A stretch of 64,000 nucleotides of DNA, from assembly GCA_905182305.1 (NCBI GenBank), contig CAJJBB010000007.1:1-64000 (forward strand), written 5' to 3'. This document shows, piece by piece, positions 31,917 to 43,577 of this stretch. The stretch comes from Flavobacteria bacterium MS024-2A. Lineage in GTDB: Bacteria > Bacteroidota > Bacteroidia > Flavobacteriales > Flavobacteriaceae. Position numbers and translations under genes: made by a program. Positions within the stretch are counted from its first letter, which is position 1; every line of letters starts with the position of its first letter. The notes beneath the pieces were generated by a model. That model had not been told where the DNA came from. It made no database searches and saw only the letters and a program-made list of their open reading frames with translations.

Positions 31917-32345
31917 TTAACAGGGAATTTTATCTATCCGTGTTTGATGACGCCCTCCTTCAAAAGCGGTGTTTAAAAAAGTTAAAACCATTTCCTTTGC
32001 TTGTTCAATTGAAATAAACCTGGCCGGTAGACTTAATATATTAGCATCATTGTGTTGTCTGGCTAATGCAGCAATTTCCTTATTCCAACATAAAGCAGAC
32101 CTTATTTTCGAATATTTATTTGCCGTCATGTTTGCTCCGTTTCCACTTCCACAAATAATAATTCCGATGGTTGCTTTTCCTTCAGAAATATCTTTTGCTA
32201 CTGGATGAATAAAATCAGGGTAGTCTACACTTTCTGGTGAATTGGTCCCATAGTTTTTAATTTGATAACCTTTTGATTCTAAAAGAGAAATAATTTCTTT
32301 TTTATACTCTGGCCCCGCATGATCATTCCCAATACTTATTTTCAT
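31917..32345 (-). CDS. rpiB: Ribose-5-phosphate isomerase B
   Basis: IGNDHAGPEYKKEII, IIICGSGNGANMTANKYSKIRSALCWN, HNDANILSLPARFI. Confidence 0.95.
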   Translation of the reverse strand: MKISIGNDHAGPEYKKEIISLLESKGYQIKNYGTNSPESVDYPDFIHPVAKDISEGKATIGIIICGSGNGANMTANKYSKIRSALCWNKEIAALARQHNDANILSLPARFISIEQAKEMVLTFLNTAFEGGRHQTRIDKIPC

Positions 32346-32834
32346 TTTTTAATTAAAATTATAAATTTCTTACAAGTTTGTTTATATACTGTTCACTAGT
32401 TTATTCATTATTTGTTTACAATTATTAAAAAAATAATTCTTTTTGTATTAGTTTAAGTTTGTATATAAAAATAAAGATAGCCCTTCTTTTAATTTTTTAA
32501 ATAGTTGTCTATTCTATAAACACAAAAAAAAGATGCTTATTAACTTTTTATATTTGAATAATTCTATTTTTTTATTAAGAATAATTTTTATTAACAGGGG
32601 TTTGTAACTTTGTATTTAACTGATTTTTAAATTTTTAATATGTTAATAATATATTATAAGCTGTTAATTTTAATATTTAAAAATTATATTAAATATTTTT
32701 ATATTCCTTATTAACACCCTATATACATCATCATTAATATAAATTTTAAAATAAAAAAAATGATTATTATGTTAATAGTGTTAATAACCCCCCTGCAAAC
32801 GTTTATTGTACCTTTGGGTTAATCAAAATAATTT
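32346..32834. other. Candidate chromosomal replication origin (oriC)
   Basis: 489-bp extremely AT-rich intergenic region with four exact TTATTAACA 9-mers: 32588-32596(+), 32641-32649(-), 32708-32716(+), 32779-32787(-), plus near matches at 32537-32545 and 32770-32778. Confidence 0.55.
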
Positions 32835-34991
32835 ATGTTTAAAGAGAAAAATGAACTTCACAAATTAGAGACAAAAATATTATCTCTTTTTAAAAGTAAA
32901 TCAAAAGCCGTTCTTAATTATAAACAAGTTGCTGCTGCTCTTGATGTTAAAGACACAAAAGGAAGAAATTATATTATTAAAGTTTTAAATAAGCTTTTAA
33001 ATAATAAACAATTACAATCTTTTCAAAGGGGTCAATTTCTATATAATACTTCTGTAATTAATAAAGTAACGACTCTTTTAACTATTATTCCTTCTGGAAA
33101 AGGAGTTGTTACTGTAGAGGGTTATAATAAAGAACTTGTTGTTCCAAAAAAAGAGTTGAATAAAGGTCTTAATGGTGACACCGTTGAGGTTAGTATTCAT
33201 AAAAAAAACAACGAATTTGAAGCGCATATTGAAACAATCATTACGCGTAGTAAAAAAGAATTTGTTGGAGTTCTTGATAAACAAAACGATTTTGGTTTTG
33301 TTTTATGTAGAAATGCTAGAATGTATACAGATCTTTTTATAGAACGATCAGAATTAAAAGATTTTAAAGATGGAGAAAAGGTGGTTGCTGTATTTAAAAG
33401 TTGGGATGATAATAGAGATTCTCCCTCGGGTACTATAGTAAAAAGTCTAGGAATACCAGGAGATAAGGAAACAGAAATTCATGCAATTCTTCATGATTAT
33501 GGTCTTCCTTATGAATTTCCAAAAGAGATAGAGGAAGCCGCTTCTAAAATACCAACTTCATTAGATATAAAAGAAATAAAAGCAAGAAGAGATTTTAGAG
33601 AAACACTAACCTTCACGATTGACCCTATATCTGCTAAAGATTTTGATGACGCTCTTTCTTTTAAAATACTTGCTAATGGAGATTACGAAGTTGGTGTTCA
33701 TATTGCAGATGTTTCTTATTATGTTCAACCCGGTACACTTCTCGATCAAGAGGCATACGACCGCGCAACATCGGTATATTTAGTTGATCGCGTGGTCCCT
33801 ATGTTACCCGAAGTTCTCTCAAATGGTCTCTGTTCTCTGCGCCCAAACGAAGAAAAATTTACTTTTTCTTCTGTTTTTATTATTAATAATAAAGGGGAGG
33901 TAAAAGATGAGTGGTATGGCAGAACGGTTATCAATTCTGATTTTCGTTTTTCTTATGAAGAGGTTCAAAATATTTTAGAAACACAAAAGGAAGAAGTAGA
34001 CGCTCTTGTTTCGTTAACAAAAGTTTCTTATAAAATTCCTAGTCCTGTTTTTGATGCAATTAATATTTTAGATAAACAAGCTAAAATTTTACGCTCAAAG
34101 CGAATGAAAAACGGTGCTATTTCTTTTGATCGTGTAGAAGTTAATTTTATTCTCGATGATGATGATAAGCCAGAGTCTGTTTTTTTTAAAACATCAAAAG
34201 ACGCACACAAATTAATAGAAGAATTTATGCTTTTAGCAAATAGAAAGGTTGCTTCTTTTATTAGCAAAAAACAACCGGCACCTCCATTTGTTTATCGTAC
34301 TCATGATGATCCAGACGAACAAAAACTTCTTAATTTAAAACAAACAATTGCTCCGTTCGGATATTCCTTTAATCCAGGGAAGAAAAATATTAGCAGCGAA
34401 ATAAACGGGTTACTATCAGCTTGTAATGGAAAAAGAGAACAAAACTTAATTGATACTCTGACCCTTCGCTGCATGTCAAAAGCAGAATATACAACTAACA
34501 ATATAGGTCATTATGGTCTTGCTTTTTCGCACTACACTCACTTTACTTCTCCCATAAGAAGATATCCTGATGTAATGGTACACAGACTATTACAAACATA
34601 TTTAGATAACAAACCACATCCAACACAACAAACAATCGAAGAAGCCTGTAAACACTCGTCACAACGAGAACATCTAGCCACTAAGGCAGAGCGCGATTCT
34701 ATAAAATACATGCAAATGATCTTCATGAAAGAAAAGGTTGGTCAACATTTTGAGGGCGTTATCTCAGGGGTAACAGAGCGTGGTTTATATGTTGAAATTA
34801 TAGAAAATAAATGTGAGGGAATGATTCGTGTTATTGACATTAAAGGTGATTTTTTTAATTACGACGATAAGCAACACGCACTAATTGGTGAACGAACTAA
34901 AAAAGCTTATCAACTAGGGGACACCATTAATATAAAAGTCAAAAAAGTAAATATTTTAAGACGCTTTCTTGATTTTGTCCCTATTTCATAA
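32835..34991 (+). CDS. rnr: Ribonuclease R
   Basis: RNB domain (TIDPISAKDFDDALSF, YDRATSVYLVDRVVPMLPEVLSNGLCSL), C-terminal S1 domain. Confidence 0.96.
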   Translation: MFKEKNELHKLETKILSLFKSKSKAVLNYKQVAAALDVKDTKGRNYIIKVLNKLLNNKQLQSFQRGQFLYNTSVINKVTTLLTIIPSGKGVVTVEGYNKELVVPKKELNKGLNGDTVEVSIHKKNNEFEAHIETIITRSKKEFVGVLDKQNDFGFVLCRNARMYTDLFIERSELKDFKDGEKVVAVFKSWDDNRDSPSGTIVKSLGIPGDKETEIHAILHDYGLPYEFPKEIEEAASKIPTSLDIKEIKARRDFRETLTFTIDPISAKDFDDALSFKILANGDYEVGVHIADVSYYVQPGTLLDQEAYDRATSVYLVDRVVPMLPEVLSNGLCSLRPNEEKFTFSSVFIINNKGEVKDEWYGRTVINSDFRFSYEEVQNILETQKEEVDALVSLTKVSYKIPSPVFDAINILDKQAKILRSKRMKNGAISFDRVEVNFILDDDDKPESVFFKTSKDAHKLIEEFMLLANRKVASFISKKQPAPPFVYRTHDDPDEQKLLNLKQTIAPFGYSFNPGKKNISSEINGLLSACNGKREQNLIDTLTLRCMSKAEYTTNNIGHYGLAFSHYTHFTSPIRRYPDVMVHRLLQTYLDNKPHPTQQTIEEACKHSSQREHLATKAERDSIKYMQMIFMKEKVGQHFEGVISGVTERGLYVEIIENKCEGMIRVIDIKGDFFNYDDKQHALIGERTKKAYQLGDTINIKVKKVNILRRFLDFVPIS

Positions 34992-40465: not shown

Positions 40466-40849
40466 TTGATCCAAGATTCACTTCAGGCATTTGTTTCGGA
40501 CTATGGCTATTCTATAGATAGACTTTCATATAACTTTATTTCTAAAGAAGCCATGCTCGCACTTAACATTAAACACCTTAACCACTCTACACACACAGAT
40601 ATAATAAGTTTTGATTATTCCTCAAAGCTCACCCTTAGGGCAGAGTTTTTTGTTTCTCCCTGGGCTGTTTCACGATCAGCTGACGACCTCTCTCAAAGCA
40701 TTGTAAATGAGATGCTTAGGGTCATTTCTCATGGTGTTTTACATTGCGTAGGTTTTAACGATAAAAGCGATTCTGATAAAAGTTTAATGCGCCTTGAAGA
40801 AAACAAGTTTATTAACATGTTCCACGTGAAACCTACACTCCATGTTTGA
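40466..40849 (+). CDS. ybeY: rRNA maturation RNase YbeY
   Basis: LNIKHLNHSTHTDIISFDYS; VISHGVLHCVGFNDKSDSDKSLM (HGxLHxxGxxH/N-type metal motif). Confidence 0.85.
   Translation: MIQDSLQAFVSDYGYSIDRLSYNFISKEAMLALNIKHLNHSTHTDIISFDYSSKLTLRAEFFVSPWAVSRSADDLSQSIVNEMLRVISHGVLHCVGFNDKSDSDKSLMRLEENKFINMFHVKPTLHV
40818..40833. promoter_or_regulatory. parS-like site 1: TGTTCCACGTGAAACC
   Basis: One or two mismatches from canonical TGTTTCACGTGAAACA; lies inside the 3' end of ybeY. Confidence 0.7.
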
Positions 40850-42713: not shown

Positions 42714-43577
42714 ATGTTTCACGTGGAACACATGATAAAGAAAGAATTCTCCTTTAAGGCAAAAGACCATCTGGTTTCCAAAGAAATCTTTGAGATCAAA
42801 TGGAACGAAAAAGGCAATTATGCAGAGACAAGTCTTCCAAAAGGCATAGTTCTCTCACGCTATTATGAAACAGAGGATTATAATTCACACAAGACAGAAA
42901 CAAAGACGATTTTAGATTTACTATATAAAACAGTTCAAAAAAGCATGCTGTTTTATAAGGAAGGATTCGTTAGGCCTCAAATAAAAGGCAATGTTCTTGA
43001 TATGGGTGGAGGCGTTGGTGTTTTCGCAGCTTATTTAGCACACAGAAAATTTGAGACTACCGTGGTTGAGCCGAGCAAAAAAGGACATGAAGCATGCACT
43101 AAAAAAGGGCTTAACACCTATCTTTCTGTTGCGGATCTACCTAAAACAAAGCGATATTCTGCCATAACTATGTGGCATGTTTTAGAGCACTTAACCTCCC
43201 CAGAGAAAATACTTCAAGAATTACACACCCTGATGGAGGCAGATGCGCTGCTGATTGTTGCCGTTCCAAATTTTAATAGCCACGATGCCAGATATTATGC
43301 CTCAGAATGGGCGGCGTTAGACGTTCCAAGGCATCTATGGCATTTTACACACAAGGGCTTGATGGACTTGGTAGAGCCACTGGGCTTTGTGTTTAAGGCA
43401 CAAAAGCCTTTATGGGTTGACGTTTTTTACATTTCTTATCTTTCAGAAAAAAACAGGAACAAAAAACTTTCTTTTTTAAGGGGTTTACTAGTTGGAATTA
43501 TATGCACTTTTAGGGCCTTGTTTGATGGCGAACACTCTTCAAACATTTATGTTTTTGAGAAAAAAACTATTCACTAG
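42714..43577 (+). CDS. Class I SAM-dependent methyltransferase
   Basis: NVLDMGGGVGVFAAYLA; ITMWHVLEHLTSPEKIL; VPNFNSHDARYYASEWAALDVPRHLWHFT. Confidence 0.9.
   Translation: MFHVEHMIKKEFSFKAKDHLVSKEIFEIKWNEKGNYAETSLPKGIVLSRYYETEDYNSHKTETKTILDLLYKTVQKSMLFYKEGFVRPQIKGNVLDMGGGVGVFAAYLAHRKFETTVVEPSKKGHEACTKKGLNTYLSVADLPKTKRYSAITMWHVLEHLTSPEKILQELHTLMEADALLIVAVPNFNSHDARYYASEWAALDVPRHLWHFTHKGLMDLVEPLGFVFKAQKPLWVDVFYISYLSEKNRNKKLSFLRGLLVGIICTFRALFDGEHSSNIYVFEKKTIH
42715..42730. promoter_or_regulatory. parS-like site 2: TGTTTCACGTGGAACA
   Basis: One mismatch from TGTTTCACGTGAAACA; overlaps the methyltransferase start codon. Confidence 0.75.

Follow-up and report, generated by a model that had tools for sequence, protein, structure and literature searches.

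A cluster of DnaA-box-like 9-mers between divergent rpiB and rnr marks the very probable chromosomal replication origin of Flavobacteria bacterium MS024-2A

The window analysed here, a 64-kb stretch (64,000 nucleotides) of the MS024-2A draft genome, contains the divergent genes rpiB and rnr (RNase R) on either side of a 489 bp gap that is 84% AT, an AT-richness as extreme as the initial annotation had claimed. Pfam matches confirm both genes as well as the two further neighbours named there, rnpA and mnmG, and the parS-like sites reported near mnmG are likewise present. The features of the locus are as follows.

31917 to 32345, reverse strand: rpiB (PF02502, E 2e-56)
32346 to 32834, no strand: very probable oriC region, the AT-rich gap between divergent rpiB and rnr, kept in Flavobacteriaceae and with a skew switch in the relatives G032, G132 and G062
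32413 to 32421, reverse strand: DnaA-box-like TTGTAAACA, with TTGTMAACA at the same position in four close species
32588 to 32596, forward strand: putative DnaA box TTATTAACA; the same columns in relatives hold TTGTTAACA, TTATAAACA or TTATCAACG
32641 to 32649, reverse strand: putative DnaA box TTATTAACA, which is CTATTAACA in two relatives
32708 to 32716, forward strand: putative core DnaA box TTATTAACA; cores of the family point to rnr
32717 to 32736, forward strand: trinucleotide-periodic element CCCTATATACATCATCATTA (in the family, NNCTATNATAANCATCATT), candidate strand-opening element, from the family consensus with 18 of 23 matches at the gap
32733 to 32761, no strand: probable DNA unwinding element, a 29-bp run of A and T only; the family consensus has an AT tract here too
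32770 to 32778, reverse strand: putative inverted box CTATTAACA, a one-off variant that abuts the last TTATTAACA
32779 to 32787, reverse strand: putative inverted box TTATTAACA, 66 bp from the core AACA
32809 to 32816, forward strand: TACCTTTG, probable rnr promoter, invariant in four species and fitting TAnnTTTG
32835 to 34991, forward strand: rnr (PF00773, E 1e-110)
40818 to 40833, no strand: parS just upstream of mnmG, matching the consensus palindrome with one mismatch
42715 to 42730, no strand: parS just downstream of mnmG, matching the consensus palindrome exactly

This arrangement is widespread in the family. A search of 151 family genomes for RpiB found it in 146. Across the roughly 50 loci that were read, rpiB and rnr diverge with few exceptions, around an AT-rich gap of about 490-1800 bp, and gap lengths in Flavobacteriaceae altogether span about 410-1800 bp; named records with the same layout include Planktosalinus lacus and several Flavobacteriaceae MAGs. 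Exceptions exist: in some relatives rnr is not the neighbour (G023) or the core motif described below is missing, and the layout was not seen in the Cytophagales and other Bacteroidota records retrieved via rnr. In some other families of the order (L291, L308, L309 and L311) a box-NN-CTAT motif lies upstream of rpiB, and rnr was not found adjoining. The numbering or contig of one relative, G025, starts within the rpiB-rnr gap. Several complete genomes are numbered from dnaA and their position 1 is therefore not the origin; dnaA lies far from rpiB-rnr in complete relatives, in line with the observation that oriC is commonly distant from dnaA in Bacteroidetes (PMC4755523).

Because gene strand confounds raw skew, GC skew was calculated at third codon positions (GC3) and corrected for coding strand, in 20-kb stretches of complete relatives. 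In three of these the skew flips at the rpiB-rnr gap and not at dnaA or mnmG. The values left and right of rpiB are -0.113 and +0.052 in G032 (means; P 0.0003), -0.096 and +0.077 in G132 and -0.172 and +0.140 in G062 (P 0.0 rounded to four decimals for both; all one-sided Mann-Whitney tests), and a split at dnaA gives the wrong sign in all three alike. On a fine scale, the minimum falls between about 0 and +6 kb of rpiB in G032 and at -16 kb in G062. A further complete relative, G124, has too weak a skew to be informative (P 0.27; best split 224 kb off). The skew minimum, raised as a check in the initial annotation, thus coincides with the gap in three complete relatives, to a precision of about 20 kb. 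The MS024-2A draft chromosome cannot decide: its own contig (C7) is flat in GC3 skew, with no flip at the gap and only a weak minimum, which lies ~28 kb to the right.

These positions also bear on a quite unlikely alternative, that the origin is at mnmG and its parS sites, 8-10 kb to the right, and that the rpiB-rnr gap is merely near. Ori-Finder has been used to name mnmG as the origin of the Flavobacteriaceae strain Algorimicrobium KMM 8389 (PMC12843772), and oriC, whether predicted or known, is placed between gidA (mnmG) and mioC in Yersinia and E. coli (PMC10225481). Moreover, consensus parS was found in 17 of 21 genomes, every time beside mnmG; in the window the exact copy falls within the first part of the following ORF (MFHVEH...), and mnmG is thus flanked by parS on both sides. 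However, mnmG lies 6-57 kb from rpiB across genomes, and we rejected it as the origin on its distance in G032 (41 kb) and G062 (57 kb), where the skew minimum is on the rpiB side and mnmG is well off it, at odds with the origin named for KMM 8389. The boxes and the core sit at rpiB-rnr rather than at mnmG, and within the window no gap separates ybeY from mnmG, the two genes overlapping by 8 bp.

Within the rpiB-rnr gap, exact copies of TTATTAACA start at 32588 (+), 32641 (-), 32708 (+) and 32779 (-), the four positions and alternating orientations originally described. One-off variants are present as well, although the count of two given for them was too low; four were found, at 32422, 32537 and 32572 (+) and at 32770 (-). 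The exact E. coli DnaA box, TTATCCACA, is absent from the gap, which in this sense holds no canonical box. Elsewhere in the window TTATTAACA occurs as two single copies (40809 and 59143), and across the whole draft genome (1.86 Mb, 11 contigs; 74 copies in total) no second close group of four was found. The contig of the window was sampled for gaps of 120 bp or more; of the 52 such gaps, rpiB-rnr has eight box-like words and the next-best has two. With gaps sampled in relatives, it also ranks first in G124 and G132 and joint first in G032, so that the 9-mers are indeed commoner here than in other AT-rich gaps. Near rpiB, the stretch 32400-32421 (TTTATTCATTATTTGTTTACAA) is almost invariant in four species and comprises a box and a possible rpiB promoter.

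For an unbiased, de novo view of the motif, all 9-mers were counted in 44 orthologous gaps against a second-order Markov expectation. The top-enriched words are variants of one motif, of the TTATYAACA / GTTATTAAC type: TTATTAACA was seen 52 times (5.6 expected), GTTATTAAC 35 times (2.0), CTATTAACA 26 times (1.3) and GTTATCAAC 18 times (0.6). The E. coli-type word TTATTCACA was seen 11 times against 1.1 expected in the orthologous gaps, and the E. coli box itself 6 times against 0.4. An EM motif search on both strands merged boxes that overlap on opposite strands into a palindromic composite, and substitution counts were used instead. Under single substitutions T4, A7, C8 and A9 are nearly fixed, position 3 is A or G, position 6 is A or C, and position 5 takes any base with a pyrimidine best. 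Such tolerance resembles that of a DnaA box and suggests, at the level of sequence, that DnaA is the binder. A four-species alignment shows the positions of the boxes retained while the boxes vary at tolerant positions, and the conservation in relatives listed as a check in the initial annotation is borne out by both comparisons. Genome-wide, TTATYAACA is rarer than a reversed control word in G124 (106 vs 157), G132 and G032, which perhaps reflects avoidance of stray DnaA boxes.

It is a shade less probable even than an origin at mnmG that a transcription factor controlling the divergent rpiB and rnr uses the 9-mers as its operators. Two promoters must fit in the gap, the invariant TACCTTTG near rnr fits what we take to be the Bacteroidota -7 promoter element, TAnnTTTG, and GTTATTAAC, which ranks among the top words, is nearly palindromic; against this stand the DnaA-box-like tolerance with its required C8 and A9, the skew switch at the gap in relatives, and the many boxes in both orientations over about 400 bp. 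Chance occurrence of an AT-rich word, with ~2 copies of TTATTAACA expected in the window, is refuted by conservation of the boxes in relatives and by dinucleotide shuffles of the gap, which hold 0.092 copies on average and reach four in 0 of 5000 cases.

The boxes are arranged around a core, box-NN-CTATNATAANCATCATT-AT tract, that is nearly single-copy per genome. Its consensus over 34 aligned gaps is (T/C)TATTAACA-NN-CTATMATAANCATCATT followed by a T/A tract, pointing to rnr. The AACA and CTAT bases are fixed in this alignment because its columns were selected by AACA-NN-CTAT; the conservation of the flanks is independent of that choice. On the box strand, A recurs at +2, +5, +8, +11 and +14 in the family core, and the ATATACATCATCAT stretch of the triplet element is invariant in four species. 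Searching 24 genomes with up to two mismatches gave 23 matches, 18 of them in the rpiB-rnr gap, as are all ten with at most one mismatch; at two mismatches G144, G101 and G023 have no match. In 22 of 33 gaps the core is accompanied by an inverted box at a distance of 66-68 bp. The AT tract first proposed as unwinding element (about 32640-32700) does exist, with 42 bp free of G and C at 32664-32705, but the unwinding role probably belongs to 32733-32761, the better candidate because it is placed between the core box and the inverted boxes.

Taken together, we computed directly a DnaA-box cluster above chance (by shuffles and by 9-mer counts in orthologous gaps), its conservation and layout, a strand-composition switch at the orthologous gap of three complete relatives, and parS sites close by; an AT-rich tract adjoins the boxes. 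The best explanation, to which we assign a probability of about 0.9, is that the gap is the chromosomal oriC, with boxes of the lineage type TTATYAACA bound by DnaA. Very probably, then, this is the oriC of MS024-2A and a bacterial oriC of the ordinary kind, with a family-specific spelling of the DnaA box (TTATTAACA) and the same layout across Flavobacteriaceae. The candidate origin of the initial annotation is thus supported by box cluster, conservation and the relatives' skew, and only the place of the unwinding element is revised. We infer that the MS024-2A chromosome behaves like those of its relatives at the gap and that replication would initiate there. DnaA, which the genome encodes complete on contig C8, would bind the set of TTATYAACA boxes; a filament starting at the core box (32708) and at the inverted pair (32770-32787) would grow towards the AT tract in between, and the duplex would open at 32733-32761. 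Helicase loading would follow, with forks departing in both directions.

Domain IV of 20 family DnaA proteins reads IGSQIG-K/S/Q-RDHATV (K in 17 of 20), vs FGGRDHTTV in E. coli, where the K/S/Q position corresponds to G431 and the family A to T435. The A is shared with the other Bacteroidia DnaA compared, in which no K was seen at the G431 position. We rejected T435A as sole cause of the box change, because other Bacteroidia also carry the A; a link between K at the G431 position and box position 6 is speculation. Tentatively, and with the odds somewhat against it, the DnaA of Flavobacteriaceae may have changed its specificity (at box position 6 it would accept or prefer A, alongside K at G431 and A at T435) and open the origin via the family triplet element NNCTATNATAANCATCATT as a non-canonical DnaA-trio.

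The gap may already figure as a prediction in DoriC; a literature search of partial coverage returned no paper on a TTATTAACA-type box or on an rpiB-rnr origin location in Flavobacteriaceae. Tools that rely on the E. coli box can misplace oriC in this family; one paper names mnmG for a single strain (PMC12843772). The present data offer a definition of oriC by its motifs for a large family whose origin lies far from dnaA. Such a definition would help in estimating growth rates from read depth, in locating the origin of draft genomes and in designing plasmids that replicate. Moreover, the system is a natural test of co-evolution between DnaA specificity and the unwinding element.

DnaA boxes differ by lineage, TTATCCACA being that of E. 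coli and TTTTCCACA that of cyanobacteria. The flavobacterial region resembles such lineage-specific bacterial origins in its 9-mer cluster, AT tract, skew switch and nearby parS; unlike them, its box is TTATYAACA with A preferred at position 6, and it lies distant from dnaA, between rpiB and rnr. The identical 9-mer TTATTAACA was earlier proposed as a putative DnaA box in Mycoplasma hominis and relatives (PMC2751442), an unrelated lineage with few boxes and an origin beside dnaA, and the identity is presumably convergent. The DnaA-box / DnaA-trio basal unwinding system (BUS) of B. subtilis follows a 3'-NAN-5' trio rule (PMC8287927). With a threshold of three or more 3'-NAN-5' triplets no further than 16 bp from a box, the MS024-2A core has three with a spacer of 10, and 23 of 33 gaps pass, a result that shuffles equal (mean P 0.53). 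Lastly, the flavobacterial core shares with BUS a box, a short spacer, a trinucleotide-periodic stretch, an AT tract and a single orientation, but differs from it in that the first base of each triplet is the best conserved.
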